A DNA stretch of 53,804 bases from an uncultured Flavonifractor sp. (GTDB lineage Bacteria; Bacillota; Clostridia; Oscillospirales; Oscillospiraceae), in contig NZ_CALWOJ010000006.1 in assembly GCF_944383115.1 (NCBI RefSeq), positions 1 to 53,804 of the forward strand, given 5' to 3'. The notes below the pieces were generated by a model that saw only the letters and a list, made by a program, of their open reading frames with translations, made no database searches and was not told the origin of the DNA. Of this stretch, positions 27,491 to 41,899 are shown piece by piece; position 1 is the first letter of the stretch, and each line of letters begins with the position of its first letter. A program made the translations under genes and the position numbers.

Positions 27491-28144
27491 TCACACCTCC
27501 TTAGGATGGGCGGCTACCGCCTTCACCGCCTCGGCAAAGGCCGCCGCCGCCGCGTCGCAGGCACTCTGGGTACCGGTGAGAAGGCCGCCGCCGAAGTTGG
27601 TCTCGCTGGGGGGCTCAAAGAGGGTCACCAGCTCCACGTCGGAGGCCTTCATGGCCTCGTCCAGACCCACCATGGCCTCCAGGGGCGGAGCGATCAGGTA
27701 GGCCAGGGCCTCCCCCTCCCGTACCCCCGCCACCTTGGACAGGTAGGTGCCGGTGCGGGAGACGGTGTGGGCAAAGTAGATGATGGAGTCATCCTGATTG
27801 GCGGAGCGAAACCCCGCCCCGCTGTTCATAAAGTCCACGCAGGCCCGCAGGCCGGACTGAACCTCCGCCGGGTTGGGCCCGGCCAGGATGCCGATGACCT
27901 CGCCGGCCAGGGCGGTGGAGGCGTTGGCCGCACCGGCATAGAGGGACTTGCCGTACACCACCTCCACCGCCGCCGCCTTGGTGGCCTCGTCCAGGGCGCA
28001 GTAGGTCATGTCGTCGCTGTCGGCGGTGATGAGGCCGATAGAGCGGTACTGTTTGGGCAGGCCCAGCTTTTTGGCCAAAGTCTCGCTGACGTTGGCAATG
28101 GTGCGGGTGGCCAGCACCTTGGCCGGGATCAGATCGCCTGTCAT
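27491..28144 (-). CDS. eutL: Microcompartment shell protein EutL
   Basis: A 217-residue EutL with two permuted BMC domains that form trimers with a gated pore. It has SIGLITADSDDMTYCALDEATKAA and the SRTGTYLSKVAGVREGEALAYL block. The start has GGGTGAGG just upstream, beyond the repeat module that separates it from eutC. The length is normal. Confidence 0.94.
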   Translation of the reverse strand: MTGDLIPAKVLATRTIANVSETLAKKLGLPKQYRSIGLITADSDDMTYCALDEATKAAAVEVVYGKSLYAGAANASTALAGEVIGILAGPNPAEVQSGLRACVDFMNSGAGFRSANQDDSIIYFAHTVSRTGTYLSKVAGVREGEALAYLIAPPLEAMVGLDEAMKASDVELVTLFEPPSETNFGGGLLTGTQSACDAAAAAFAEAVKAVAAHPKEV

Positions 28145-28154
28145 GTCCTCACCC

Positions 28155-28313
28155 CCTCAAACTTTCCCCACGGGGCAGGCCCCGCGGGGACTCCAAGTGT
28201 ATTTTCATCTGCTCGGGCGAAGTGAATTCGCCCGGCATCAAGGTTTTGCCTGGCGGCAAAACGCTTGTACGCGCTGACGCGCGCCCCGCCGTGCGGGGCC
28301 CCGTTGCCGCTGG
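28155..28313. repeat. Multi-hairpin repeat module, copy 2 (between eutC and eutL)
   Basis: It shares the core ATCTGCTCGGGCGAAGTGAA and onward (28207-28233) and the GTTTTGCC/GGCAAAAC hairpin with copy 1, but has different outer hairpins (GGGGC/GCCCC type, and GCCCCGC/GCGGGGC). On the minus strand it reads QNLDAGRIHFARADEN, the same frame as copy 1, without a convincing gene. Confidence 0.78.
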
Positions 28314-28318
28314 TATCC

Positions 28319-29191
28319 TCAACGCAGGTCAATTCCACTCGCCTTCCTTTCCAGCATGGTCTTAATCAGCTCTGCAATATGGGCCCCCGCCTCTACGGCG
28401 GTGGTGCCCCCCTTGTGGATGTTGGAGATCACCGTCCGCTTGGACTCGGGGATGCCGATGTGGGGCTTGTAGGTCAGGTAGGCGGACATGGACTCGGCGG
28501 TCACCAGGCCGGGCCGCTCCCCCACCAGCATACAGACCACCTCCGCGCCCGTCAGATCACCAATGTGGTCGGAGGCTCCCACCCGGCAATACTTCACGTA
28601 GAGTACCGGGCCGCCCTCCAGGCCGTAGGCCTTCAGGCCCGCCCGCACCGCCTGGAGGCAGTCCACGGCGTTGGCCTCGATGGCGGCGGAGCTGAGTCCA
28701 TCCCCCACCACCAGGGCAATTTTCGGGTTCTGCCCAAAGGTCTTTTTGATGACGGCCTGATTCTCCTCGTCAAACCGGCGGCCACGGTCGGGCCGGGTCA
28801 AATACTCGTCCTTGGTCTGGCACAGGGTCTGGACGGGCACAAAGCCGTTCTGTACCGCAAATTCGTCGGGTACATGGGAGAACACCGAGTCCTGAGCGGC
28901 GGCGTGGTCGGCCCGCATCCGCAGCATGGAGATGGTCCTGTATCGGGCCCCCGCCCGTCCCAGCCCCAGCCGGGCCGGGGTTTTTAACTTCAAATCCTGA
29001 AAGGCCTGGCCGCTGCGGGGGTTGTCCACCAGGTACTGCCGCCGCAGGTCGATCTGGGTGATATCCTCCAGGCAGCCCCCGCTCACGTCCTCCTGCCGGG
29101 AGGCGGGCCGGGTCGCGGTCACAGCGGCAGGCTTCCCCGCCAGCTCCAGCACCATCCGCTCCACCATGGAGCGCAGTTCTTTTTCATCCAA
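28319..29191 (-). CDS. eutC: Ethanolamine ammonia-lyase small subunit EutC
   Basis: A 290-residue EutC, the small subunit of the adenosylcobalamin-dependent lyase that splits ethanolamine to acetaldehyde and ammonia. Marks include [29 protein letters not shown], and the [20 protein letters not shown] block. The start is a TTG at 29191 with AGGAGG eight bases upstream; the longer frame would overlap eutB and has no ribosome site. The N-terminus ([15 protein letters not shown]) is an encapsulation-like helix. Confidence 0.93.
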
Positions 29192-29204
29192 ATTCAAAAC
29201 CTCC

Positions 29205-30569
29205 TTACCCCAGCAGCACCGACGCGTCACCCGCCAGGGGGGTCAGCTTGCCGTTTTCCACAAAGCCCATGTCCTCCAGCCACCGCTGGAAGGGGGGAAT
29301 AGCAGTCAGGCCAAACATCTCCCTCAGGGCGGCGGTCTCGTGGAAGCCGGTGGTCTGGTAGTTGAGCATCACGTCGTCCCCGTGGGGGATGCCCATAAAG
29401 TAGTTGCACCCGGCGGCGGTGAGCAGCACCGCCAGATCCTCGATGTCGTTCTGGTCGGCCTTCATGTGGTTGGTGTAGCAGGCGTCGCACCCCATAGGGA
29501 TACCGGTCAGCTTGCCCATGAAGTGATCTTCCAATCCAGCCCGTATTACTTGCTTGGAATTATACAGATATTCCGGCCCAATGAAGCCCACCACCGTGTT
29601 TACCAGGTAGGGCTGGAACCGCTTGGCAAAGCCGTAGCACCGGGCCTCCATTACCACCTGGTCGGCACCGAAGTGGGCCTCGGAGGACAGCTCGGAGCCC
29701 TGGCCGGTCTCGAAGTACATTACGTTGGGCCCCACGGCGGTACCCTCCTTCAGGGCCAGCTGCCGGGCCTCCTCAATGAGTTTGCCGTCCAGGCCGAAGG
29801 CCTCGTTGCCCTTCTGGGACCCGGCGATGGACTGGAAGATCAGGTCGCAGGGAGCCCCCTTGCGCACCGCCTCCATCTGGGTGGTGACGTGGGCCAGCAC
29901 GCAGATCTGGGTGGGAATGTTCCAGCGGTTGCGCACCTCGTGGAACCGATCCAGCACCCGGCGCACACTTTCCACCGAATCGTCCACCGGGTTGAGGCCC
30001 AGCACCGCGTCCCCCGCCCCGTAGGTCAGGCCCTCCAGCAGAGAGGCCAGGATGCCGTCGGGGTCGTCGGTGGGGTGGTTGGGCTGGAGCCGGCAGGACA
30101 GAGTGCCCGGCAGGCCGATGGTGGTGTTGCAGTGGGCGGTGACCTTGATCTTCTTGGCGGCGTAAATGAGATCCATGTTGCTCATCAGCTTGGCCACGGC
30201 GGCGATCATCTCCGCCGTCAGGCCACGGCTCACCCACCGGATGGCGTCGCCGTCGTGGTTTTCCACCAATAACCACTCCCGCAGCTCGGCCACCGTCCAG
30301 TTCTTGATCTGGTCGTAGATCTTCTCGTTCACGTCGTCCTGAATGATGCGGGTGACCTCGTCCTCCTCATAGGGGACGGCGGGGTGGTTGCGCAGGTCGG
30401 CCAGGGTCAGGTTGGCCACCACCACCTTGGCCGCCACCCGCTCCTCGGCGTTCTCAGCGGCAATACCCGCCAGTCGGTCTCCCGACTTCTCTTCATTGGC
30501 TTTGGCCAGGGCGTCCTTCACTGACTTGAATTCATAGACATGCCCCAGCAGCTTGGTCTTGAGTATCAT
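29205..30569 (-). CDS. eutB: Ethanolamine ammonia-lyase large subunit EutB
   Basis: A 454-residue EutB, the catalytic TIM-barrel subunit. It has [29 protein letters not shown], and a [16 protein letters not shown] block (ethanolamine- and cofactor-binding loops). It lies directly before eutC (13 bases) and after eutA, as in other eut operons. Nothing is missing. Confidence 0.97.
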
Positions 30570-30587
30570 GTGATCGCTCCTTTGCGG

Positions 30588-32003
30588 CTACGATTTGTGA
30601 AATACAAGGGTCTTGATAACGATGGGTAATACGGCGCCCCCGGCCACCGGGGCGCCGATGTCGATATAGTCCCCGTTGTCCATCTCCACGCCGTCCAGAC
30701 AGAGCAGGGGGCCGGGCAGCAGGGCGGCCATGGCCTGACCCAGCACCTTGGCCTGGTCGGCCTCCACCGCCACGATAGGGACAAAGCCCGCCTCCACCAG
30801 AGGGGCCAGGCCCTCCGCCACTCCCCGGGCCAGCTCCTGGATGCGGCTGTAAGAGGGATTGCTCTCCCCCCTAAGGGCCAGGGCCAACTGCACCAGTCCC
30901 CCCTGGTCCTGGTACCAGCTCAGTTTGTCTTTGATCCTTCGGGCCAGTTCCTCCGGCCCTCCCCCCTCCTCCCGGCTGGCCAGTTTGAGGATGGGGATGT
31001 TTTTCAGGGGGAAGGTGATGTCCCGGTAGAAGATGGTGGAGCCGGACAAATCGGTGGCGTGGCTCCCCGCCCCCACCACTGTGGCCCTTATAGTCTCCGC
31101 CCCCCGGAAACGGCCCGCCTTCTGAAAGGCGGGCGAGGCGGCGATGGCCCGCCCCAGCAGCACGCCCATGTCTCCGAAAGCCAGCCAGTCCGGCGGCGGG
31201 TCGTAGATGCAGTCGGCCACCCCGCCGGAGAAGGACACCACCGGTACCTCCTCCACCGTCCAGCGGGTGCCCTGGGTGAGAAAGGCGTCCAGCCTGTCCC
31301 GGCCGGGCCGCAGGCCCGCCGCCTGCTCCAACGCCTCCGCCATGATTTGAAGGGTGGGCTGCAAGCCCTCCGGCGTGATCCGCTGACCCACCGCCGGGGC
31401 GGGACATCCCGCCCGTGCAAAGACCGGCGATACATAGGTGACTCGTCCGTCTTTATCCATCTTAATAAGCCGCCCGCCCACGTCCAGGCAGCCGGTACGC
31501 ACCAGCTCCCCATTTTGGTACAGAGCCAGGTTGGCGGTGCCACCGCCGATATCAAAGTGTAATACGGTTGTATGTTGTTCCTTTGCGTATTCATCCGCAC
31601 CCGCTCCACGAGCCGCCAGGATGGACTCCAGGTCGGGCCCGGCGGTGGCCACCACGAAGTCCCCGGCGAACTCCGACAGGGCGGCAAGCACCTCCTGGGC
31701 GTTCTCCTTCCGGGCGGTCTCCCCGGTGATGATGACCGCCCCGGTGTCCACCTGGGACTTGTCAAAGCCCGACTTGCGGTACTCCTCTTCCACAATGGCC
31801 CGCACCCCGGCGGCGTCGATGACGGTGTCGGACAGGAGCGGGGTGAAGTGGATAGCCGAGCGGTAAAGCACCTCCCGCCCGGCGATGGACACCCGGGGCA
31901 CCGTAAAGGGGGTGGCCCGGTTCTCCAGGGTCAGCCGGGACAGAATCAGTTGGGTGGTGGAGGTGCCGATATCAATACCTACAGAGAGTAACTGTTCTCC
32001 CAT
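30588..32003 (-). CDS. eutA: Ethanolamine ammonia-lyase reactivating factor EutA
   Basis: A 471-residue ASKHA-fold ATPase that frees damaged cobalamin from EutBC. The ATP-site motif GIDIGTSTTQLI lies near residue 10 and DIGGGTANLALY near residue 150. The ATG overlaps the eutG stop (TAATG at 32001-32005) and GGGAG lies upstream. The open frame extends further out only inside eutG, so this start is preferred. Confidence 0.93.
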   Translation of the reverse strand: MGEQLLSVGIDIGTSTTQLILSRLTLENRATPFTVPRVSIAGREVLYRSAIHFTPLLSDTVIDAAGVRAIVEEEYRKSGFDKSQVDTGAVIITGETARKENAQEVLAALSEFAGDFVVATAGPDLESILAARGAGADEYAKEQHTTVLHFDIGGGTANLALYQNGELVRTGCLDVGGRLIKMDKDGRVTYVSPVFARAGCPAPAVGQRITPEGLQPTLQIMAEALEQAAGLRPGRDRLDAFLTQGTRWTVEEVPVVSFSGGVADCIYDPPPDWLAFGDMGVLLGRAIAASPAFQKAGRFRGAETIRATVVGAGSHATDLSGSTIFYRDITFPLKNIPILKLASREEGGGPEELARRIKDKLSWYQDQGGLVQLALALRGESNPSYSRIQELARGVAEGLAPLVEAGFVPIVAVEADQAKVLGQAMAALLPGPLLCLDGVEMDNGDYIDIGAPVAGGAVLPIVIKTLVFHKS

Positions 32004-33088
32004 TACGCCAACTCCCGCAGAATGGCCTTGATATCCTGGGGGGTGACGCTCCGGGGATTGGAGGGGGCGCACAGGTCGGCCAGGGCGGCGGCGGCGATCT
32101 CGTCCCCCTGGTCCCGCACTGTCTTTGCGTCCACTCCGCACTCCGACAGGCGGCCCGGCTGTTCCAACCGTCCCCGCAGCCGCTCCATGGCAAAGGCCAG
32201 ACCTCTGGCCGTGGGCGTCAGGCCGCAGGCCTTGGCCAGGGCGGCGTACCGCTCCGCCGTTTGGCGGTCAGCGGCGTTGAAGCGGATCACATGGGGCAGC
32301 AGCATGGCGTTGAGCCGCCCGTGGGGGATGTGGAACCGCCCGCCCAGGGCGTGGGCCAGGCTGTGGCTCAGCCCCAGTCCGGCGGCGTTGAAGGCTATGC
32401 CCGCCAGGTTGGAGGCAAGCAGCATACGCCCTTTGGCCTCCTGCTCCCCGTGAAAGGCGGCGGGCAGGCTGCTCCAGGCCAGGGCAAAGGCCTTCTCCGC
32501 CAGGGCGTCGGTATACACGTTAGCTCCCTTGGCCACATAGGCCTCGGCGGCGTGGGTCAATACATCCATGCCGGTGTCGGCTGTCACCTTGGCGGGCACC
32601 CCAGCAAGAAAGACCGGGTCCAGCACCGCCCGATGGGGCAGCAGGGCGTCGTCCACCAGGGGGTACTTCACTCCCTTCCGGCTGTCGGTAAGGACGGCGA
32701 AGGAGGTGACCTCCGAGCCGGTGCCGGCGGTGGTGGGTACCGCCCAAAAGGTGATCTCCGCCGGCGCGCCCAGCTTTTTGCCGTACTCCACCATAGCCTT
32801 GGCGCAGTCCAGGGCGGAGCCGCCCCCGAAGGCCACCACCGCCTGGGGCTTACAGTCGGCCAGGGCTTTGGCGCCCTTTGCCACCACCTCCAGAGGCGGG
32901 TCGGGCACCACGCCGGTAAAGGTCTCCACGGTGCAGCCGGGCAGCCGGGCTTTCACTTTGTCCAGCAGGCCGGACTTGGCCAGAAAATCGTCGGTGACCA
33001 CCATCACCCGCTGCCCGGCCAGCTCCTCCAGGGCGGCCAGGGCGTCCGGGCCGAAGGAAATCGCGGTTTTCAGCTTGAATACTTCCAT
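32003..33088 (-). CDS. eutG: Iron-containing alcohol dehydrogenase EutG
   Basis: A 361-residue group III (iron-dependent) alcohol dehydrogenase that reduces acetaldehyde to ethanol and regenerates NAD. It shows VAFGGGSALDCAKAM, TTAGTGSEVTSFAVL and the metal-ligand stretch HALGGRFHIPHGRLNA. As the first gene of this operon it matches the position of eutG in Firmicutes. The upstream region (33089-33510) contains a large hairpin, described separately. No eutV/eutW regulator genes are present in the window. Confidence 0.92.
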   Translation of the reverse strand: MEVFKLKTAISFGPDALAALEELAGQRVMVVTDDFLAKSGLLDKVKARLPGCTVETFTGVVPDPPLEVVAKGAKALADCKPQAVVAFGGGSALDCAKAMVEYGKKLGAPAEITFWAVPTTAGTGSEVTSFAVLTDSRKGVKYPLVDDALLPHRAVLDPVFLAGVPAKVTADTGMDVLTHAAEAYVAKGANVYTDALAEKAFALAWSSLPAAFHGEQEAKGRMLLASNLAGIAFNAAGLGLSHSLAHALGGRFHIPHGRLNAMLLPHVIRFNAADRQTAERYAALAKACGLTPTARGLAFAMERLRGRLEQPGRLSECGVDAKTVRDQGDEIAAAALADLCAPSNPRSVTPQDIKAILRELA

Positions 33089-33510: not shown

Positions 33511-33774
33511 ATGTCTAACAGCAACAGCAATCAGCCCGTGGTTTCCAGCGCTCGTGAGGCCCTGAACAAGTTCAAGATGGAAGCTGCCGCCGAAGTGGGC
33601 GTCAACCTGAAGCAGGGCTACAACGGCGACCTGACCAGCCGTGAGGCCGGTTCCGTGGGCGGCCAGATGGTCAACATCATGAAACCCGTACGAACCGCGA
33701 ACTATGAGCGGGCAGACCGCACCGCGCCGGGCCATGTTCAGCGCATTTGCTACACAGCCACTGTCACAGCCTGA
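33511..33774 (+). pseudogene. Alpha/beta-type small acid-soluble spore protein, 5' part, fused to recombinase tail by element insertion
   Basis: Codons 1-54 are a typical alpha/beta SASP: AREALNKFKMEAAAEVGV, LKQGYNGDLTSREAGSVGGQMV. The conserved second helix should continue with KKMIxAYE, but after the crossover at 33673-33674 the frame reads NIMKPVRTANYERADRT and 33 foreign residues to the stop. The missing tail (KKMIQAYENGMAGK, stop) is found 8.1 kb downstream at 41779-41821. Joining the two gives a perfect 68-residue SASP. These proteins coat and protect spore DNA. As it stands the DNA-binding helix is lost, so this copy is probably inactive until the element excises. AAGGAG precedes the ATG. 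Confidence 0.88.
33655..33695. other. attL of the integrative element
   Basis: Left junction. Host SASP sequence ends and element sequence begins at the shared AA (33673-33674). The element-side arm ACCCGTACGA (33684-33693) is an inverted match of TCGTACGGGT at the right end. Rejoined, the two arms are centred exactly between the two A bases, as attP arms of serine integrases are. Confidence 0.85.
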
Positions 33775-33784
33775 CATACAACCA

Positions 33785-33819
33785 GAGGCCGAGGATGTTA
33801 TAACCCCGGCCTCTTTTTT
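33785..33819 (+). terminator. Terminator after the displaced recombinase tail
   Basis: GAGGCCG and CGGCCTC pair across a 15-base loop and are followed by TTTTTT. It lies ten bases after the chimeric SASP stop. In the circular form of the element it would be the recombinase gene's own terminator. Confidence 0.75.
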
Positions 33820-34214
33820 ATTAAAACCCCATCCCCCTCAGGGGATCACAGCGACGGAATATCCCACGGGGACCAGCCCTCTATTTTTGCCCAAACCTAC
33901 GGCGGGGATATTCCATGGAGCGGGACCAACCTTTGACCCCGCCTTATGCCCAGCCAGACACAGCACCCAGGCCCTCACCCGTGGCGGGCTACCCGGCCAC
34001 CGTCACCGCACACACTCCTTTTCTGAACAACAAAAAACGGCCCTTTCGGACCGTTTCAAATGACCTTGCAATCTTTCAGGTTATGGAGTAAAATAGTGCC
34101 ATCGAGATAAATAGAGGCAGGACGTGAGAGGCGGCAACCTCCCACGCCCCTATGCAGGAGACAGACCCTCCCACACAATAGCATTTCGCTACGCCTTTTC
34201 TCATTATAGCTGTT
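33820..34214. other. Non-coding left part of the element
   Basis: I see no convincing gene here. An inverted repeat GGAATATCCC (33856-33865) and GGGATATTCC (33905-33914) encloses 39 bases. An A-run followed by a short inverted repeat, ACGGccctttcggaCCGT, lies near 34035-34053. These could be replication or regulatory sites of the element. Confidence 0.35.
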
Positions 34215-34292
34215 TTGTGTTTTTTTGACAAGGTGGTTATAATGGGCTTTGTGTCGTACCTCATGCGGTGTAGGGAAACCTGCACCGCTTTT
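34215..34292 (+). promoter_or_regulatory. Promoter and leader hairpin of the lipoprotein gene
   Basis: TTGTGT (34215-34220) and TATAAT (34238-34243) are 17 bases apart. About 22 bases downstream, GCGGTG-t-AGG and CCT-g-CACCGC form a hairpin followed by TTTT (34265-34292), a terminator-like structure in the leader that could attenuate the gene. Next to the ribosome site an inverted repeat GCCGTCAC-t-GTGACGGC (34376-34392) may be an operator. Confidence 0.5.
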
Positions 34293-34408
34293 GTTTATCT
34301 CGGCGGGAACGCCCAACGGGGGACCGGGAGAAATCCCACCCCCAACGGGCCGGACCGTTGAGAGCCAATAAAAGAGCCGTCACTGTGACGGCATAGGAGG
34401 AAACCGTA

Positions 34409-35176
34409 ATGAAAAAGGCGATCATATATGGTATGTCCCTGGCACTGATTTTATCCATGACAGCCTGTGGTGGTTCCAATGAAAACGCCGCTGATAAGAG
34501 CCAGGAAACCAGCACCCCCGAAGTCTCCCAGTCCGTGGAGAGCAGTACCCCCGCCCCAGAGCAGACCACCCAGACCGCACCCGAAACCACCCCCACCCCG
34601 GAGAGCGTTTCCACTCCTGCCCAGGAGAATACCACTGCACCCCAGGAAACTGACTCCCTGTTTACAGAAACCGACGAGACCATGTATGCAACCACCACAG
34701 TCAATGTACGTTCCAGTTATAGCACCAACAGCGATAAGTTAGGTAGCTTAACCAAGGCTCAATCTGTTACTCGTACAGGCATAGGAACTGGTGATGCGGC
34801 GGGATGGAGTCGGATAGAGTTTAATGGTAAGGTAGCGTATGTATCTAGTGACTATCTCAGTGCTACCAAGCCACAAGTAAATACCTCAACTGGTTCAAGT
34901 GGTAGTTCTGGTGGTCAGACCAGCAAGCCCAGCAGCAAGCCCAGCACAGGTGGAAACAGTGGTAGCTCCTCAGGTGGCTCTTCTGGTGGTAGTACAGCTC
35001 CAGTACCTCCTGGAGGTTCTGGTAGCTCTGGAGGAAGCTCCAGTGGAGGTTTAGGAGACTTAGCCAACCAGATACAGCAAGGCAGAGACGACATGGGTTA
35101 TTCAGGTGGAGGTAACGGCGGAGCTTTATCTGATGAAGATTATGACTGGATATCTGGTAATGTACAGTTAGACTAA
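34409..35176 (+). CDS. Surface lipoprotein with bacterial SH3 domain
   Basis: A 255-residue protein with a lipoprotein signal (MKKAIIYGMSLALILSMTAC, lipobox MTAC with Cys 20). A Ser/Thr/Pro-rich spacer follows, then an SH3b domain at about residues 95-152 (VNVRSSYSTNSDKLGSL to VAYVSSDYLS). The tail is low-complexity, rich in Gly and Ser. SH3b domains often bind peptidoglycan. It is probably cargo of the integrative element displayed on the cell surface; no catalytic domain is seen. GGAGG lies before the ATG, just after a 17-base inverted repeat. Use of less GC-rich codons than the host genes supports transfer. Confidence 0.8.
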   Translation: MKKAIIYGMSLALILSMTACGGSNENAADKSQETSTPEVSQSVESSTPAPEQTTQTAPETTPTPESVSTPAQENTTAPQETDSLFTETDETMYATTTVNVRSSYSTNSDKLGSLTKAQSVTRTGIGTGDAAGWSRIEFNGKVAYVSSDYLSATKPQVNTSTGSSGSSGGQTSKPSSKPSTGGNSGSSSGGSSGGSTAPVPPGGSGSSGGSSSGGLGDLANQIQQGRDDMGYSGGGNGGALSDEDYDWISGNVQLD

Positions 35177-35527
35177 CCATTATTTAAAGAAGGTAAAGCT
35201 CACTGCATTTTAGGTACATATAATTAATAATATGAACTGAGAGATTGGAAAGAGGTAATTTCCAATCTCTCACCAATTCAGCCTCCTGCGCCCTTGGCGC
35301 AACCGGCATAAACCCCATCGCTTGCCGCCGCGACCATTTTTGAAATATGCGTGTTTTATAGACACTCTTTTGAGGTCCCCAAATCGGGGGCCTCTTTTTT
35401 TAACCCTTATGCATTACAAACTGTATTTATTTAATGAAGATTGATACAACTTCATAATCAAAAATGAATACGTGTTTTTAGACGTGTTGGTATTAACAGG
35501 CATCTTAAATGAAAGGAAAGAGATGTC
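35177..35527. terminator. Gap with hairpin (35239-35271) and terminator (35372-35401)
   Basis: A perfect 13-pair stem (35239-35251 with 35259-35271) lacks a T-run. Further on, GAGG-t-CCCC and GGGG-g-CCTC form a stem followed by seven T bases, a good terminator. An A/T-rich region before 35528 probably holds the promoter of the regulator gene, but no clear -35/-10 pair was assigned. No gene is seen in the gap. Confidence 0.65.
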
Positions 35528-35896
35528 ATGAAAAAGCTACATCATACCGCTACGTCTAACCCTGCTGCGAATACCCCTAAATCTGAGCCCCCTGATACTT
35601 CTACCATTGGAGGACGCATTAAAGCACTCCGAAAGAAAAAAGGTATGTCTCAAGAGGTTCTCGCTGGCCTACTAGCAACCGATAAATCGGTTATTTCTCG
35701 CTGGGAAAATGGCGAAAGAGTGCCTACTTGGGAGATGGCAGGACAGATTGCTAATGTCTTTGGGGTTAGTCCTGACTACATCAGCTTTGGTAGTGACCAT
35801 AGAGATAATAATGATTATATCTATGTAGGCGGTCTGTCTTTTAGAGAAACCGCAGTCGTACGGATGATAGTAGATATTCTCCGTAAAGATTGCTAA
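35528..35896 (+). CDS. XRE-family helix-turn-helix regulator
   Basis: A 122-residue protein with a Cro/CI-type helix-turn-helix at about residues 26-85 (IGGRIKALRKKKGMSQEVLAGLLATDKSVISRWENGERVP). A short tail follows with no enzymatic domain. Such proteins usually repress the replication or excision genes of the element that carries them. It is the first gene ahead of the replication block; the following 186 bases contain no gene but several short GC-rich inverted repeats. Confidence 0.88.
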   Translation: MKKLHHTATSNPAANTPKSEPPDTSTIGGRIKALRKKKGMSQEVLAGLLATDKSVISRWENGERVPTWEMAGQIANVFGVSPDYISFGSDHRDNNDYIYVGGLSFRETAVVRMIVDILRKDC

Positions 35897-36082
35897 AGCA
35901 GCACACTTAGTTGTCTGCCGAGCAAAGCGATTAGCCGATAATGTGAGACAATATTAGCAAGGAAGGGATAGGCCCTCCGGGGCCTCCCCCCTCTCCCTCC
36001 CGGCGAAGTGCCGCCACGACCTCTGTGTTGAGCAGAGCGAGCGCACCAAGGGAAAACAATCTCAGATTGGAGGAATTTTACA

Positions 36083-36355
36083 ATGAGCAGGATTGTGGGC
36101 ATTGTGGATGTGTCTTTCTCGACCAAGGATGGCAACACCATAACGGGAAAAACTTTCCACGTAACAAATCCGGTAGAGGCAGGTCAAGGAAGAGGAGAGG
36201 TCACGGACCATTTCTTTCTCTCCGCTGCTAAGTTAGCGGCTCTTGCCTTTGCCCCGGCGCTAAATCAGGAGGTTCAAGTTCTGTACAACCGTTTCGGTAA
36301 GGTCGCCAGCCTTGTTCTGGTTGATCCGTTGGACTCAACCATGGAGGTGGACTGA
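36083..36355 (+). CDS. Unrecognised small protein of the element (possible OB-fold DNA-binding)
   Basis: A 90-residue, beta-rich protein that I do not recognise. The pattern GKTFHVTN and LNQEVQVLYNRFGKVASLVLVD recalls the small ssDNA-binding proteins of filamentous phages, and a rolling-circle element would need such a protein, but this is weak. GGAGG precedes the ATG. Its stop overlaps the next start (TGATG at 36353-36357), the first of a chain of four coupled genes. Confidence 0.7.
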   Translation: MSRIVGIVDVSFSTKDGNTITGKTFHVTNPVEAGQGRGEVTDHFFLSAAKLAALAFAPALNQEVQVLYNRFGKVASLVLVDPLDSTMEVD

Positions 36356-36687
36356 TGACCATTCAGAAAGCCATTGAGGTCTTTTTGATGGCCTGGAGGT
36401 TAACCTGGGACCCAGCCTTGGAGGTCATGACCTGGCCCCGCTACCCTTATAGGGAGTTGGGGCCGAGTCAGGCCCCTGACGGCTCCGTGGTTCTTCGGGT
36501 CTACAAGCGGGGGTTTGGTTACAAGCGCAAAGGAATCAGGCCCCGTGAGCCTCCTGCCGCTGATGTGCGGAGTATTCGGGAAGTTTTGAATCTGGCTCTG
36601 CCTGCTGGATTTCGCATCCGTGAAGTCCAGGACCAGGGCAAGAGCGTAATAATTATCTTGGAGGAAAGATTTTATGCCAAAGATTGA
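36355..36687 (+). CDS. Unrecognised protein of the element
   Basis: A 110-residue, fairly basic protein without signal peptide or clear domain. It contains a Trp/Tyr-rich N-terminal region (WRLTWDPALEVMTWPRYPYREL) and a basic middle (VYKRGFGYKRKGIRPREPP). It overlaps the previous gene by one base and the next by 14, so it is translated as part of the cassette. No function proposed. Confidence 0.7.
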   Translation: MTIQKAIEVFLMAWRLTWDPALEVMTWPRYPYRELGPSQAPDGSVVLRVYKRGFGYKRKGIRPREPPAADVRSIREVLNLALPAGFRIREVQDQGKSVIIILEERFYAKD

Positions 36688-37192
36688 AGAAATGGCGGGC
36701 GGCTTGCAGCGTGGTCTAGCCCGTGGCATCGGTACTGCCGCTGCTTCTTATCGCTGTTACTTGGCTAGAGCCAATGCTTTAGCGGTAGCTCAAGCCCGTA
36801 CAGCGGAGGAGAATCAATTTTCTGGGAATTGGCTGGCAACCTTCGCTTGCCTGTTCCAGAGTGCTGTCCACAACACTGTGGAATTGACGCATCTGGTTGA
36901 ACCAGACTCGTTTGAGGATTTTTACTCTGAACATCCGGTTCGGCGTGCCAAAAAGGGCTTTCTTGCAGTGTGTCTTGTTGGTTGGCGTCGTCCTGGCTTT
37001 GAGATTTCTGCTAGGGATGTACAGCGCATTTTGAATATCGAGATGCGCCGTCTGTGTAAGCAATGCGGCATTCCCAAGATTCAAGTAACTGTACAATATC
37101 TTGCGTGCAACCAGGTTCAATTTGCACTTGCATTTGCGAGGGATATGGTTGCAGCAAAGAGGGAAATCAATGATGAACCTCTTAAAATTTAA
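36674..37192 (+). CDS. Unrecognised protein of the element
   Basis: A 172-residue, mostly helical protein with a Gly/Ala-rich N-terminus (GGLQRGLARGIGTAAASY) and three cysteines spread through the chain. No membrane segment strong enough for an anchor and no known motif are seen. GGAGG lies inside the preceding gene. Its end overlaps the next gene by 23 bases. A structural or relaxosome-helper role could be imagined but is not supported. Confidence 0.7.
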   Translation: MPKIEEMAGGLQRGLARGIGTAAASYRCYLARANALAVAQARTAEENQFSGNWLATFACLFQSAVHNTVELTHLVEPDSFEDFYSEHPVRRAKKGFLAVCLVGWRRPGFEISARDVQRILNIEMRRLCKQCGIPKIQVTVQYLACNQVQFALAFARDMVAAKREINDEPLKI

Positions 37193-37496
37193 TCGTGACT
37201 ATATCTCGTTAGAGGATCTGGCTGTTATTGGCAAGGTTCTGGCCGCCCTGGGGGAGTTAGGGATTACCCTGCTCCTCCGGGACCCGGTCCCCGTCAGGTG
37301 GGATTATGGCCCCCACCGGTTGTACCAATGGGAGGTTATCACCCGTAATGACGAGCCAATAGGTACCCAAGCTATTCAGGATCTGTTGGGCGCTGTCAAT
37401 TCTGTGGGCAAATTCAGGCCCCAAGTTTACAGCGTAGAAGACTATCCCACCGAATATGGTAATTTTACTCAATACTATATTACGGTGTTTATATAA
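37170..37496 (+). CDS. Unrecognised protein of the element
   Basis: A 108-residue protein starting at ATGATG with GAGGG upstream. It shows alternating beta and helical stretches (LEDLAVIGKVLAALGELGITLLLRD) and an aromatic C-terminus (NFTQYYITVFI). It is the last of four coupled genes and ends 149 bases before the stem-loop origin. No family recognised. Confidence 0.68.
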   Translation: MMNLLKFNRDYISLEDLAVIGKVLAALGELGITLLLRDPVPVRWDYGPHRLYQWEVITRNDEPIGTQAIQDLLGAVNSVGKFRPQVYSVEDYPTEYGNFTQYYITVFI

Positions 37497-37533
37497 TAGG
37501 CGGCACATCTATTTCCCAAAGTCCTACATGATC

Positions 37534-37554
37534 GTGTTGGCCCAAAGCCAACAC
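37534..37554. repeat. Hairpin near the origin
   Basis: GTGTTGGC (37534-37541), loop CCAAA, GCCAACAC (37547-37554). A larger imperfect stem follows at about 37559-37605. Both may be part of the replication or packaging region of the element. Confidence 0.5.
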
Positions 37555-37644
37555 CAAGGGGGTGAGCGAGCGGCGCAGGCGCAAGCCGAAGCTGCCGCCC
37601 ACCCTCTTGTCAGTTGTAAGGCTCACATCCATGTGCCGCCCGGA

Positions 37645-37692
37645 TGCCCTAAAGCCTAGTATTACCTTTAGGGCACTTCTGTACCGTGTACC
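37645..37692 (+). promoter_or_regulatory. CRESS-type rolling-circle replication origin (stem-loop with TAGTATTAC)
   Basis: A perfect 10-pair stem, TGCCCTAAAG (37645-37654) with CTTTAGGGCA (37666-37675), displays TAGTATTAC (37657-37665) at the end of an 11-base loop. This nonamer in a stem-loop is the nick site of circoviruses and their relatives. Immediately beyond are two TGTACC copies (37680-37685 and 37687-37692) that look like Rep-binding iterons. The origin lies about 100 bases before the rep gene. Confidence 0.88.
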
Positions 37693-37782
37693 ATCATTGT
37701 TTCCTTGTCACTTTTGGCATTACAAGATATGGCCTTCTGCCTTGCACTGGACCCACATCGAACAGATAGGAGGTGAACACAA

Positions 37783-38811
37783 ATGACTGACACACGCCAC
37801 AGGCGATACCTTTTGACAATCAACAATCCCGGCAACGATTGGTCACACGAAAAAATTCGCACAGTGCTGAAAAACTTGAATTTGCGTTATTGGTGTATGG
37901 CTGACGAAATCGGCTTGCAAGAACAGACACCTCACACGCATATCTACTTTGTAGCGGCGGCTTCAGCGGTTCGGTTTTCCACTGTTAAAAAAATGTTTCC
38001 TACCGCTCATATTGACCCGGCTAATGGGAGTAGCGTAGAGTGCAGGGATTATGTTCAGAAGTCGGGTAAGTGGGCTGATGATCCCAAGGCTGACACCAGC
38101 ACCCCCGGCACCTTTGAGGAGTGGGGAGAGCTGCCAGACGAACCCGGACAAGGCTACCGCTCCGATATTGCTCAACTTTACGCTATGATTTCAGACGGCA
38201 TGAGCAACGCCGAAATCATGGCCCAAAATCCAGACCTTGCAATCCACATCTCCCGCATGGATAAAATACGGCAGGATATTTTAGAAGCCAAATACCGGGA
38301 CGAATTTCGGCAACTGGATGTGACCTATATTTTCGGCCCCACTGCAACTGGAAAAACCAGAGGGGTTATGGAAAAGCATGGTTATTCCAATGTCTACCGT
38401 GTCACGGACTACACCCACCCATTTGACCGCTATGCTCAGGAGCCGGTTTTATTGTTCGATGAATTTCGCTCCTCTCTTATGGTCGGTGATATGTTGGACT
38501 ACCTGGACGGCTACCCTCTGGCCCTCCCAGCAAGATACGCCAACCGACAAGCCTGTTATACAACGGTCTATATTATCAGCAATATTGACCTCTCCCAGCA
38601 ATACAAAAACGTGCAGGAGACAGAGCCAGCCACCTGGAAAGCGTTTCTCCGAAGAATTCATCATGTCGTTGAACAGAACCGGGACAAGCCCCCTACGGAC
38701 CACGGCACCGCCCTGGACTACATATTTCCCCCGCCTAAACCAACCCCCGATTGGGTCCGGGAGATCGAGAACGACGAAACACCCCCGGAGCAGTTTGGCC
38801 TCCCATTTTAG
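37783..38811 (+). CDS. rep: CRESS-type replication initiator Rep (HUH endonuclease + SF3 helicase)
   Basis: A 342-residue Rep with all expected motifs in order. Motif I is LLTINN (10-15). Motif II is PHTHIYF with His 51 and His 53. Motif III is DYVQK with nicking Tyr 90 and Lys 93. Walker A is GPTATGKT (185-192), Walker B is VLLFDEF (Asp 226-Glu 227), and motif C is YIISN with Asn 267. Length and layout equal those of circovirus/CRESS-DNA virus and related bacterial plasmid Reps. It should nick the loop of the upstream origin and unwind DNA for rolling-circle replication. AGGAGG precedes the ATG. Nothing essential is missing, so it may be active. Confidence 0.93.
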   Translation: MTDTRHRRYLLTINNPGNDWSHEKIRTVLKNLNLRYWCMADEIGLQEQTPHTHIYFVAAASAVRFSTVKKMFPTAHIDPANGSSVECRDYVQKSGKWADDPKADTSTPGTFEEWGELPDEPGQGYRSDIAQLYAMISDGMSNAEIMAQNPDLAIHISRMDKIRQDILEAKYRDEFRQLDVTYIFGPTATGKTRGVMEKHGYSNVYRVTDYTHPFDRYAQEPVLLFDEFRSSLMVGDMLDYLDGYPLALPARYANRQACYTTVYIISNIDLSQQYKNVQETEPATWKAFLRRIHHVVEQNRDKPPTDHGTALDYIFPPPKPTPDWVREIENDETPPEQFGLPF

Positions 38812-38926
38812 GGTTGCTGAAATGGCAACAAATCTTGCCACTATTGGCATTGCAGGATTCCTGTCCCCGTGATACCATTAGGCCATCAAGAGGGACAACC
38901 CCTCAAAAATTTAAGGAGGAACTATT

Positions 38927-39283
38927 ATGGATAACTTCAAGATCGCCATTGCCACTGGAGAGCCTGTCACTGAGCAGGCCCCTACCGTGGACACCCCCAG
39001 CACCACCGAGGTGTCTGTTATCTACACGATATTGATTCCCAACGAAAACAGGTCGTATACGTTTGAGGTTTTTATTGACCCCAAAGTATATGATTTCGGA
39101 TGGAGAGATGCCGAAATTGAGCGGATTGTCACAGGAACGCATCATGTGACAGTTTGCGCCCCAGAATACTGGGACGGGACAATAGATGAAAAAGTCAATG
39201 TAACGTGTGACGCCGAGGGACGAATTGTTCTTCATAAGGAAAGGCTCACACCAGATGATAAGGAGGACACTAACAATGGATAA
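38927..39283 (+). CDS. Unrecognised element protein with shared N-terminus (1)
   Basis: A 118-residue protein. The first 29 residues (ATGEPVTEQAPTVDTPSTTE) almost match the start of the next gene; the rest (VSVIYTILIPNENRSYTFEVF and on) is a beta-rich domain with no counterpart there. AAGGAGG precedes the ATG. It follows rep by 115 bases and its end overlaps the next gene by eight bases. No function recognised. Confidence 0.72.
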   Translation: MDNFKIAIATGEPVTEQAPTVDTPSTTEVSVIYTILIPNENRSYTFEVFIDPKVYDFGWRDAEIERIVTGTHHVTVCAPEYWDGTIDEKVNVTCDAEGRIVLHKERLTPDDKEDTNNG

Positions 39284-39764
39284 CATCAATACAACTATCT
39301 CCACCGGGGAGCCTGTCACTGAACAGGCCCCCGCCGTGGACACCCCCAGCACCAGCACCATCGCCAGTGATAACACCCCCGTTTATCTGCCTGCCGACTA
39401 TCTCTCTGCTGGCTACTATGCCATTACCGACAAGGGTGCTAAGTACCTTCGCCCCGAGTTTGTTGGCAAGTACGCTGAGACGATGGCCTCTCTGCTGGCT
39501 GATATGAAACCCACTGATTTTAACGGTCTACTTCGGGAGATGAAACGTAGCAAGAAAAAGACGCTCCCCTTTGAAGCCCGTTTGACTGCTGCCGCTGAAA
39601 TGCTCCCCAAGGCTCTGGCTCTGGTACACCGTAAAAAAGCCCCGGCCCTGTTGGTCACTTATATCAAGGACAATCTGGACCATCTTCACGATGACGATGA
39701 TTGGACGGCCTACTATCGCAATTTGGAGGCTATCGCCGGTTATATGATCGGGGGAGATACCTAA
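39276..39764 (+). CDS. Unrecognised element protein with shared N-terminus (2)
   Basis: A 162-residue protein. Its N-terminus (STGEPVTEQAPAVDTPSTST) repeats that of the upstream gene. The remaining 130 residues are helical and basic (MKRSKKKTLPFEARLTAAAEML, then an acidic HDDDDW patch). The start at 39276 was chosen for its AAGGAGG; the open frame runs further upstream inside the previous gene. Its stop overlaps the next ATG (TAATG). No family recognised. Confidence 0.72.
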   Translation: MDNINTTISTGEPVTEQAPAVDTPSTSTIASDNTPVYLPADYLSAGYYAITDKGAKYLRPEFVGKYAETMASLLADMKPTDFNGLLREMKRSKKKTLPFEARLTAAAEMLPKALALVHRKKAPALLVTYIKDNLDHLHDDDDWTAYYRNLEAIAGYMIGGDT

Positions 39765-39880
39765 TGTCCCCCGATGACATAGGAGGCATACAGGGCTGCA
39801 CATATACTGCCTTTCCGCCTGACAGAGAGGGCAGATCGTATGGAGAATATATTTTCTTTGTTGGGGAAAGGTATCTGTAA
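39764..39880 (+). CDS. Tiny coupled gene, 38 residues
   Basis: A 38-codon frame that begins inside the stop codon of the previous gene (TAATG at 39762-39766): MSPDDIGGIQGC, then TYTAFPPDREGRSYGEYIFF. The coupling is the main support. No function known. Confidence 0.45.
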   Translation: MSPDDIGGIQGCTYTAFPPDREGRSYGEYIFFVGERYL

Positions 39881-39894
39881 GGGGGGAGCCACCT

Positions 39895-40029
39895 TTGCAG
39901 ATTGACAGCAAATCATCCATGGAGAGCCTTGTCCGTCAAACTTGGCTCCACTACTATAATGACTACCTTCGGGAGCGTGGAATTATTACCGAGGAGAAAT
40001 GGCGGAAAATGCGGCAAAAAATTGGATAG
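39895..40029 (+). CDS. Small SHOCT-like protein upstream of the recombinase
   Basis: A 44-residue frame from a TTG with GGGGGGAG upstream (an ATG at 39919 is the alternative). The sequence YYNDYLRERGIITEEKWRKM resembles the short SHOCT-type motif that often sits just before recombinase genes of Firmicute mobile elements. It may be an oligomerisation or regulatory peptide, or an excision helper; none of this is shown. A terminator follows nine bases later. Confidence 0.6.
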   Translation: MQIDSKSSMESLVRQTWLHYYNDYLRERGIITEEKWRKMRQKIG

Positions 40030-40037
40030 TGATAATT

Positions 40038-40073
40038 AAAAGGCGCTCAGAATGATACCTCTGAACGCCTTTT
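40038..40073 (+). terminator. Terminator before the recombinase gene
   Basis: AAAAGGCG-c-TCAGA and TCTGA-a-CGCCTTTT form a 13-pair stem with one mismatch, followed by further T-rich sequence. It separates the replication operon from the recombinase gene. Confidence 0.85.
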
Positions 40074-40077
40074 GTTC

Positions 40078-40105
40078 TTGCTTTTTTCTTTGAATATGAT
40101 ATAAT
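40078..40105 (+). promoter_or_regulatory. Promoter of the recombinase gene
   Basis: TTGCTT (40078-40083) and a perfect TATAAT (40100-40105) with 16 bases between, about 40 bases before the recombinase start. Confidence 0.7.
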
Positions 40106-40144
40106 ATAGATGATGATAAAACGAACTTTTTGGAGGTAGCCAGT

Positions 40145-41821
40145 ATGGACATACATACCGCACGGCAGCAGCTCAAAACAAAATCTATCTATGACATTCC
40201 TATGCGGGTTACCTACTACGCCCGTGTTTCGTCCGAGAAAGACGAACAGCTCAACTCCCTGGGCAACCAGATTTCCTATTATGAGGACTTTATTAAGAAA
40301 AATCCCAACTGGACTTATGTAGAGGGCTACATTGACGAGGGCCTTTCCGCCGCCACCACCAAAAAGCGAGAGAATTTCCACCGCATGGTGGACGATGGGA
40401 AAGCGGGCGTTTTTGATTTCATCATTACGAAAGAGATTTCCCGTTTTGCCCGTAACACCCTGGATTCCATTCAGTTTACCCGTGAACTGCTTAACGCCGG
40501 GGTGGGGGTATTCTTCCAGAACGATAATATCAACACGTTGGACGAGGACAGCGAGCTGCGCCTTACCATCATGTCCGGTATCGCTCAGGACGAGCTGCGC
40601 AAGCTGTCCAGCCGTGTCAAATTTGGTCACGCCCAGGCCATCAAGAAAAATGTGGTGCTGGGAAACAGCCGAATTTTTGGATACACCAAAGACGGCGGGC
40701 GGCTGGTGATTGACCAGGACGAGGCTCCCATGGTACGGGAACTGTTTGAACTGTACGCCACGGGACAATACAGCATGAAGCAGATCGAAACCCTGTTTTG
40801 GGCAAAGGGCTACCGCAACCACAACGGCAAGAAGATCGCCCACACCACCATGTCGGGCATGATTTCCAACCCCAAATATAAGGGTTACTACGTGGGTAAC
40901 AAGGTGAAGGTTATTGACCTGTTTACCAAGAAACAGAAATTCCTCCCCCCGGAGGAATGGGTCATGTTCAAGGACGAGACAGGCGAGATTGTCCCGGCTA
41001 TCGTGGATGAAGAACTTTGGGAACAGGCCAACAAGGTATTGAAAAAGCGGAGCGAGGACGTAAAGGGGCGGCAAGGGATATGTAACCACGCCAACCTCCT
41101 AACCGGGAAACTGTATTGCGCCGACTGCGGCACGGCCTACTATCGCCGGGAGTCCAAAGATAAGCAGGGAAACAAAAACAGCAAGTGGGTATGCAGCAAC
41201 AAAATCAAAAGCGGGGCTGACGCCTGCGCCTCTTTCCCTATTTATGAAGAAGAATTAAAGCCCTTACTTTTTGAGGTGTTCCAAGAGACAGAGGCAGACG
41301 CTGAGGCATTGATTGAGGAATATATTGAGATGTACAAGTCCCTGGCAGACGGCGGAGACACCGCAAAACAGATTGACGCTCTCCGGGATCAGGCAGACTT
41401 AGCACGAAAGAAAAAAAGTAAGCTGCTGGGCTACAATGCCGCCGGTCAGCTCTCCGACAAGGACTTCCTCGCCATGAATAAGGAGTGTGACAAGGAGATC
41501 GAGGAGGCCGAGCGGCAGATTTACGAGCTGGAACAGCAGCAGCTTTCCAAAGAGGAATTCAAAAAGCACATCGACACCATCCGCCGGGTGCTGCATGACG
41601 CCAAACGGGACGCCGCTCAGGGGATTATCAACAAGGATTTCATCGACAAGTATATTGACAAGATTTTTGTCACCCCGGAGGCGGACGGCACCATGCGCCT
41701 GCAAATCAAGATTTTTACCGGGGAAACTACGGACAAGTACCTCTCTAAACTCAGAGGTCGTACGGGTCACACGTTGAAGAAGATGATCCAGGCCTACGAG
41801 AACGGTATGGCTGGCAAGTAA
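40145..41821 (+). CDS. Large serine recombinase (integrase) with spore-protein tail
   Basis: A 558-residue serine integrase of the element. It has the catalytic domain with YYARVSSEKDEQ (nucleophile Ser 29), FIITKEISRFARN, a recombinase domain, a zinc ribbon (LYCADCGTAYYRRES with a later Cys pair), a coiled coil and a basic end. The ATG at 40145 has GGAGG upstream. The last 14 residues (KKMIQAYENGMAGK) do not belong to it: they are the C-terminus of the interrupted SASP, gained at the AA crossover (41777-41778). In the excised circle the frame would continue instead into 33 residues now found at 33675-33774, giving about 577 residues. So attP lies inside the coding sequence. Confidence 0.93.
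   Translation: MDIHTARQQLKTKSIYDIPMRVTYYARVSSEKDEQLNSLGNQISYYEDFIKKNPNWTYVEGYIDEGLSAATTKKRENFHRMVDDGKAGVFDFIITKEISRFARNTLDSIQFTRELLNAGVGVFFQNDNINTLDEDSELRLTIMSGIAQDELRKLSSRVKFGHAQAIKKNVVLGNSRIFGYTKDGGRLVIDQDEAPMVRELFELYATGQYSMKQIETLFWAKGYRNHNGKKIAHTTMSGMISNPKYKGYYVGNKVKVIDLFTKKQKFLPPEEWVMFKDETGEIVPAIVDEELWEQANKVLKKRSEDVKGRQGICNHANLLTGKLYCADCGTAYYRRESKDKQGNKNSKWVCSNKIKSGADACASFPIYEEELKPLLFEVFQETEADAEALIEEYIEMYKSLADGGDTAKQIDALRDQADLARKKKSKLLGYNAAGQLSDKDFLAMNKECDKEIEEAERQIYELEQQQLSKEEFKKHIDTIRRVLHDAKRDAAQGIINKDFIDKYIDKIFVTPEADGTMRLQIKIFTGETTDKYLSKLRGRTGHTLKKMIQAYENGMAGK
41757..41798. other. attR of the integrative element
   Basis: Right junction, with AA core at 41777-41778. The element-side arm TCGTACGGGT (41757-41766 region) mirrors ACCCGTACGA at attL. 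Host spore-protein sequence starts directly after the core. Confidence 0.85.
41779..41821 (+). pseudogene. 3' remnant of the interrupted spore-protein gene
   Basis: Codes for KKMIQAYENGMAGK and a stop, the standard alpha/beta SASP ending, in frame with the recombinase. It completes the SASP begun at 33511 when joined across the AA core. Confidence 0.88.
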
Positions 41822-41855: not shown

Positions 41856-41899
41856 AACAGGAGCCGCCGGTCGTTTGACCGGCGGCTCCTGTTCTTTTT
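41856..41899. terminator. Terminator of the spore-protein gene (now after the recombinase)
   Basis: A perfect 17-pair stem (41856-41872 with 41877-41893), loop GTTT, then a T-run. It is probably the original SASP terminator, and also ends the minus-strand gene that follows. Confidence 0.88.

Follow-up and report, generated by a model that had tools for sequence, protein, structure and literature searches.

The 53,804-nucleotide stretch of DNA analysed here (the window), from an uncultured Flavonifractor species, carries a gene for an alpha/beta-type small acid-soluble spore protein (SASP) that is interrupted by an 8.1-kb element encoding a large serine recombinase, as was established by reading both junctions and rejoining their outer and inner halves. 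The SASP frame starts at position 33511, runs through SASP codons 1–54, and continues from the left crossover pair, an AA dinucleotide at 33673–33674, into 33 codons belonging to the element. The recombinase frame (ATG at 40145) enters the last 14 SASP codons at the right crossover pair, AA at 41777–41778. An earlier reading of this DNA (the original prediction) had proposed that the SASP loses its conserved end at the first of these sites and that the recombinase ends in a SASP tail after the second, and both junctions were confirmed at those coordinates. Rejoining the outer halves yields a 68-amino-acid SASP ending in KKMIQAYENGMAGK, and rejoining the inner halves yields a 577-amino-acid serine recombinase with a different 33-amino-acid tail, as had also been proposed. 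The resident (integrated) recombinase comprises 558 amino acids, versus the 577 of the circle form. The features of the locus are as follows.

33511–33672, plus strand: 5' part of the SASP gene, 54 codons (PF00269, E 1.4e-22, model positions 1–51 of 59), also from rejoining
33673–33674, no strand: left crossover AA, centre of the left attachment site (attL), from junction analysis and rebuilt elements
33673–33774, plus strand: the recombinase's own tail, 33 codons plus stop, in frame on the SASP 5' part, from rejoining and tail conservation
33684–33693, no strand: right arm of the element's attachment site (attP), ACCCGTACGA, from the dyad about AA
33784–33820, plus strand: hairpin and T run after the circle-form recombinase, from folding
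34409–35176, plus strand: cargo, bacterial SH3 domain protein (PF08239)
35528–35896, plus strand: cargo, helix-turn-helix protein (PF01381)
36083–37192, plus strand: cargo, three overlapping open reading frames (ORFs; 90, 110 and 172 amino acids) without Pfam match
37783–38811, plus strand: cargo, CRESS-virus-like replication protein (PF02407, E 1.6e-6)
38927–39764, plus strand: cargo, two overlapping ORFs (118 and 185 amino acids) without Pfam match
40145–41776, plus strand: large serine recombinase, part common to both states (PF00239, PF07508, PF13408)
41758–41767, no strand: left attP arm, TCGTACGGGT, from the dyad about AA
41777–41778, no strand: right crossover AA, centre of the right attachment site (attR), from junction analysis and rebuilt elements
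41777–41821, plus strand: last 14 SASP codons plus stop, now the recombinase C-terminus, from rejoining and same-genus SASP matches
41856–41893, plus strand: terminator-like hairpin 3' of the SASP 3' part, from a hairpin scan

Attachment sites and recombinase domains

The predicted 10-base inverted arms centred on AA are present in the rebuilt attP. The arms TCGTACGGGT (41758–41767) and ACCCGTACGA (33684–33693) are mirror-placed around the AA pair, and 16 of 25 positions are symmetric about it, versus 4–8 at the 12 other centres tried. Scores of at least 16 occur at 16 of the 53,744 centres of the window. The AA pair is assigned as the crossover because the dyad centre fixes it. A longer shared core was rejected, since the in-register junctions share just the AA near the centre and scattered 3–4-base matches. 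The central two base-pairs are the same in attP and in the host attachment site (attB), within a dyad att site.

The resident recombinase contains, in order, the Pfam domains PF00239, PF07508 and PF13408 (Resolvase, Recombinase and zinc ribbon), all above cut-off; the domains are of serine recombinase type only, with no tyrosine recombinase assignment. Residues Y25, R27, V28 and S29, in the region of the catalytic serine, are invariant in 22 aligned recombinase sequences, and we take S29 to be the catalytic nucleophile. The terminator predicted to follow the circle-form recombinase corresponds to a hairpin with a T run after its stop codon (−16.9 kcal/mol, z −4.2). This hairpin, with a folded loop of 10, is unlisted in the general hairpin scan, where the loop limit was 8. 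An assembly artefact was rejected as the source of the arrangement because, with contigs matched by number and length, a single contig carries both correctly ordered ends in 30 relatives in addition to the window, including the isolates Oscillibacter sp. 1-3, Pseudoflavonifractor phocaeensis An858 and An901, and Flavonifractor sp. An10, and because a related insertion (L107, described below) lies in a complete genome.

Among the cargo, the gene at 37783–38811 places a CRESS-virus-like replication protein (Rep) in an integrated bacterial element that uses a serine integrase. Integrated pCRESS plasmids are likewise bacterial elements with such a Rep (PMC6668415), but membership here is putative: a pCRESS Rep has endonuclease and helicase domains, PF02407 was the sole match at threshold, and an integration cassette is not described in the portion of that report on which we draw. 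Beside the SASP gene, the minus strand carries genes resembling those of ethanolamine utilisation (eut) at 27491–33088, named by eye.

The exchanged tail in rebuilt elements and related recombinases

Sixty further stretches were fetched, of which 56 were paired with a recombinase and, together with the window, gave 57 rebuilt elements. Of the four left unpaired, L173 is inverted, L199 is inserted at another site, and L200 and L201 are SASP genes without an interruption. All 57 rebuilt elements open into a tail in the recombinase frame that is also in frame with the SASP. For 31 of these (including the window), a single contig holds the two ends with correct order and strand, and the elements span approximately 6 to 42 kb; the other 26 pairings are presumed from the genome. 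A Flintibacter muris element (L069) stands outside the strict 31 for its wrong arrangement and was kept among the 57. On its contig, 89 kb separate the SASP 5' part from the SASP-tailed recombinase (L069/L194), which is on the other strand; this reads as either a misassembly or an inversion.

Among 17 centres compared, none scores above the AA in any rebuilt element, with one tie (L056). Observed dyad scores average 14.7 (range 11–19), versus 6.1 when the same attP halves are combined with randomly chosen AA sites from the window. Because the elements are related, the 57 do not represent independent trials.

The tail is 33 amino acids long in 56 elements and 35 in one, and 55 of the tails are distinct. 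Among the 56 equal-length tails, R13, R16 and Y27 are invariant, and G20 and H21 are each present in 54. The ratio of amino acid-changing to silent substitution rates (omega) beyond the attP arm, at codons 10–33, is 0.54 across these 56 tails, compared with 0.95 for the sequence following the stop codon. A frame control with 26 tails yields 0.54 in frame versus 1.08 and 1.15 when shifted. These values reject the possibility that codons 10–33 are kept only as attP DNA. Codons 1–9 have an omega of 1.16, as expected where the DNA of the attP arm is constrained. On this comparison, the lost tail is evidently a conserved protein feature, constrained less than the rest of the enzyme.

One role for such a feature would be a degradation signal that keeps the free-form enzyme short-lived until integration stabilises it. 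Most tails (49 of 56) end in A, V, L or I, which suits this proposal. The commonest penultimate residues are T and Y, in contrast with ssrA tags, which end in the residues AA. A precedent exists in mycobacteriophage BPs, whose repressor sheds 33 residues, an ssrA-like tag among them, on integration and whose integrase has a C-terminal proteolysis signal (PMC4557955). Conservation here extends along the whole tail (R13, R16, Y27), not just its last residues, and we consider a degradation signal very unlikely.

Relatives of the recombinase were sought in 300 family genomes (96 matched with E no higher than 1e-60), in genome contigs (271 relatives, of which the best 80 were kept) and in viral, phage and plasmid collections. 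The 118 classified loci comprise 110 (L032–L141, window copy included) plus eight from viral and phage records. A SASP tail ends the recombinase at 110 of the 118, two are inverted in the SASP gene, and six have other ends; the corresponding numbers among 102 distinct recombinases, a few of them partial, are 95, two and five. The original assignment of attP to the recombinase gene and attB to the SASP gene of a serine integrase is supported by the rebuilt elements, by these SASP-tailed relatives, and by the uncut phage copies described below, and the in-frame change of both C-termini extends beyond the window to the rebuilt elements and relatives.

A SASP search in 79 carrier genomes gave a match in 70, and the usual best match stops at residue 56–61. 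A match reaching the normal end was present in three genomes (G335, G186 and G316) and in none of the other 76. Because many assemblies are incomplete, the statement that these hosts have no intact SASP is weaker than the statement that the SASP seen is cut.

A sister family of recombinases (L212–L231 and L267–L277; 40–44% identity) lies in a sigK-like gene, named by eye, at NLRLVAH(I/V) and in both orientations; its target has VKK codons in common with the SASP target. Five recombinases at 42–46% identity (L242, L243, L244, L246 and L254) have SASP-like tails of KKMI type, and the SASP target may therefore be older than the close family.

The original prediction called for an uninterrupted SASP in related genomes, and four same-genus genomes have one; the contrary outcome defined beforehand did not occur. 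Three of them contain the rejoined 68-amino-acid SASP at 99–100% identity over its full length, and the fourth has a 94% match over 66 residues. Same-genus DNA (L003–L006) spans the join in one piece with small gaps, at 77.9–80.5% identity over 666–673 bases. More widely, the rejoined SASP is matched in 198 of 250 family genomes searched.

Uncut copies, inverted insertions and other targets

IMG/VR contigs contain relatives of the recombinase with an intact, never-joined end. One of these (L204, 64% identity) lies on a 100-kb contig with phage-like genes, named by eye, on either side, and its recombinase frame continues across an entire attP with AA at the centre of the dyad. A profile of the joined tails recognises the L204 tail (as second copy L239) with E 5.8e-6 for 25 sequences. 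Among 25 distinct, complete viral recombinases of at least 500 amino acids, six have a SASP-like tail; the other 19 were tested for a dyad. A tail of 33 codons predicts a dyad 98 bases ahead of the stop codon. In seven of the 19 (L204, L205, L206, L208, L245, L251 and L265), the highest-scoring dyad in the range tested is exactly there, and in five of these seven no other of 24 blocks taken from the final 600 coding bases scores higher. Five more (L249, L252, L253, L260 and L264), four of them unbeaten, have their best dyad at 92–110 bases, which brings the total within that range to 12 of 19 (nine unbeaten); the 90–112-base range tested was set after positions had been seen, so only the 98-base count is a prediction. 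Dyad-bearing phage copies are as little as approximately 40% identical to L204 (38% for L260). Geometry thus appears to be better kept than tail sequence in divergent copies. The uncut phage copies are the strongest evidence, independent of any joining, and they indicate that the nesting of attP within the integrase gene is old. In two copies (L206 and L249) the uncut attP has a TG dyad centre rather than AA or TT, which suggests other targets.

Two insertions (L106, and L119 in Butyricicoccus pullicaecorum DSM 23266) are inverted, such that the SASP 5' part meets the end of the recombinase gene in reverse orientation. One junction is readable per insertion, and it carries TT where the others have AA. 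For the Listeria phage A118 integrase, identity of the central two base-pairs is required and alone sets orientation (PMC3556126, from the portion of the report seen). TT at the inverted junctions is what such a central-dinucleotide rule would predict here. Variants of attP with TT exist, given that the uncut sites of L205 and L208 have TT at the dyad centre; for L119, a TT centre is inferred from its one junction. For the inverted insertion in G340, a motif search of L119, and of L233 as far as its contig extends, did not recover the other end. After the junction, the inverted insertions leave the recombinase with just LTI, and the SASP part ends in KNV and a stop.

The original prediction also suggested looking for the same element in other sites, and L107 (complete genome AP018533.1, 714130–735764) provides such a case. 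Its cassette lies in a UmuC-like gene (named by eye), in frame on both sides, while the SASP is intact; the recombinase gains the end of the UmuC-like protein. L106, L119 and L107 argue against a special role for the SASP tail itself and rule out that the resident enzyme requires it. Judging from these ends, integrated copies have in common that the enzyme loses its own tail, not that it gains a particular new one.

These loci also bear on the possibility that the tail is conserved on behalf of the host, supplying the interrupted SASP with a usable end and the carrier with a spore protein that still works. The tail is in the SASP frame in all 57 rebuilt elements, and a working chimera would help the host given that 76 of 79 carrier genomes are without a full-length SASP match. 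However, the junction is read in the same frame by recombinase and SASP, and a single frame therefore suits both proteins. Furthermore, the tail occurs on never-joined phage copies and on the UmuC-like gene in L107, and the inverted insertions end the SASP part at KNV and a stop. We therefore regard a host function as highly improbable.

The recombinase end appears to travel with its tail. When the window is compared with L174 (genome G128) or L198 (G300) at E 1e-10, the only common blocks are one running from 39837 or 39889 to the recombinase end and one ending at 33819, just past the hairpin. Both are contiguous in the circle, as recombinase, attP, tail and hairpin. G128, whose recombinase is 97% identical to that of the window, comes from a different genus. 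The common blocks and the different genus indicate that the module, including the tail, moves between hosts and elements as a unit. In L064, the Rep region is additionally in common with the window, at 66–69% identity.

Direction control and comparison with known systems

The integration cassette of this family of mobile elements of gut bacteria consists of a large serine recombinase gene with attP located 33 codons before its stop, followed by a hairpin. In the circle form, the recombinase carries the conserved 33-residue C-terminal extension. Crossover of AA with AA in the SASP gene swaps this extension for 14 host-encoded residues and transfers it onto the SASP 5' part. We propose that the extension would have a job in the free enzyme, namely integration, whereas the resident enzyme, which keeps its three named domains without the extension, would be poorer at recombining attP with attB and be left for excision. 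Excision, most likely with a directionality factor, would rebuild the full enzyme, and the outcome would be a self-resetting latch contained in the att site.

We assign different strengths to the parts of this proposal. The architecture, comprising the nested attP, the tail exchange, its conservation, and its recurrence in dozens of elements and never-joined copies, is almost certainly correct as read from these sequences. The latch, in which loss of the extension makes the resident form a poor integrator directed to excision, is put forward tentatively as a real possibility. For architecture and latch together as one statement, we lean slightly towards acceptance. Built-in control of direction by a tail swap, as raised in the original prediction, is a plausible hypothesis; in its favour, the segment that is lost is conserved as protein and hardly varies in length. 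A strict version seems doubtful, in which the extension serves as a domain for integration, so that only the free form would integrate, the resident form would do nothing but excise, and the two would interconvert without a change in expression. If this strict version is true, the direction of one gene's product would be set by its DNA location, with geometry kept across changed targets and orientations.

Several observations weigh against the proposal. No free circle was found in assemblies of the close family. In the genome from which the window comes, a 122-base attP matched nothing beyond the two half sites, and the attP pattern was absent from 400 family genomes at up to three mismatches (a pattern that would match 50 of the 57 rebuilt attPs) and, in its exact form (10 of 57), from IMG/VR contigs. 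Natural uncut attPs were encountered only in more distant relatives, of at most 64% identity. The tail profile is weak or silent on the other divergent natural copies (next best E 0.0075), and seven of the 19 tested (L209, L247, L248, L255, L256, L258 and L263) have no such dyad. In the sister family, no comparable tail was found at its other end in the 10 loci read, and a tail common to both families is unsupported there. Constraint on the tail (omega 0.54) is weaker than on recombinase residues 1–360 (0.09–0.23) and 361–540 (0.33–0.41). Finally, if the extension were needed for all activity, the resident enzyme would be unable to excise. Close cassettes occur in different hosts with different cargo, which argues that insertion is not a dead end; excision must therefore be within the reach of the resident form or of a full-length enzyme provided in trans.

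Some of the same evidence fits another account, in which the arrangement is a by-product of a compact cassette whose att site and enzyme travel together. The extension would aid folding or stability slightly, both forms would carry out the same reactions, and a separate factor would set direction. The moderate constraint on the tail, the retention of three domains in the resident form, and its tolerance of ends as different as the SASP tail, LTI and a UmuC-like end are in keeping with this account. So is skinCd, a related element whose direction depends on a distinct factor, CD1234 (PMC5025042, from the part of the report seen). No CD1234-like directionality factor was recognised in the element, although no homology search aimed at one was made. 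The by-product account does not readily explain why 56 of 57 tails are equal in length with invariant residues far past the attP arm, or why the attP position recurs in distant phage copies; we consider it possible but rather unlikely.

For the known systems compared here, each source was seen in part, and statements about them are limited accordingly. The closest precedent for an attP in an integrase coding sequence is phage Mx8 (IntP/IntR), in which integration creates a new 3' end, and thus a new C-terminus, that modifies specificity and does not inactivate the enzyme (PMC6070905). The Mx8 integrase is also named as extending across attP in the Islander report, which covers tyrosine integrases only (PMC4383910). 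Mx8 encodes a tyrosine integrase, whereas the present system has a large serine recombinase, a dyad attP, a 2-bp crossover and approximately 100 elements. In BPs and relatives with integration-dependent immunity, attP lies inside a control gene whose product loses 33 C-terminal residues and changes function (PMC4557955), but the altered gene encodes the repressor there and the integrase itself here. The attP of the window is not in a repressor-type gene; its helix-turn-helix gene (35528–35896) is at neither element end. As far as these sources go, a nested attP (Mx8) and a 33-residue loss (BPs repressor) are known, and neither concerns the end of a serine integrase. A partial literature search found no report of a serine integrase with attP inside its own gene or of a SASP gene as attB. 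The thousands of large serine recombinases catalogued by Durrant et al. (PMC10083194) may include members of this family.

Control of the reverse reaction of large serine integrases is a central question for phage biology and genome engineering. Approximately 100 enzymes that lose a conserved end through their own reaction make this question directly testable by comparing two proteins, and the data supply dozens of attP/attB pairs with mapped crossover as well as natural orientation reversals.

Serine recombinase elements that split sporulation genes are known from skinCd in sigK, gin in gerE and SP-beta in spsM, and in skinCd the recombinase adjoins one gene half (PMC5025042, PMC5595907). The target here differs in being a SASP gene (PF00269), and no change of the recombinase end is mentioned for those elements in the material consulted. 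The only SASP match found in some hosts is interrupted, which raises the question of how those hosts protect their spore DNA.

In 10 of the 56 paired relatives (L189–L198), the SASP gene has a second interruption immediately ahead of the EVGVNL codons, so that one small gene is split by two elements. Nine of these loci (L190–L198) have a common element edge, AC(A/G)CCAAGG and then GAGGT, and eight of the nine carry another recombinase-like end (..YKFIG..) just upstream. Among the fetched N-terminal pieces (L279–L288), nine of 10 end in a similar short tail (..PS or ..PY).

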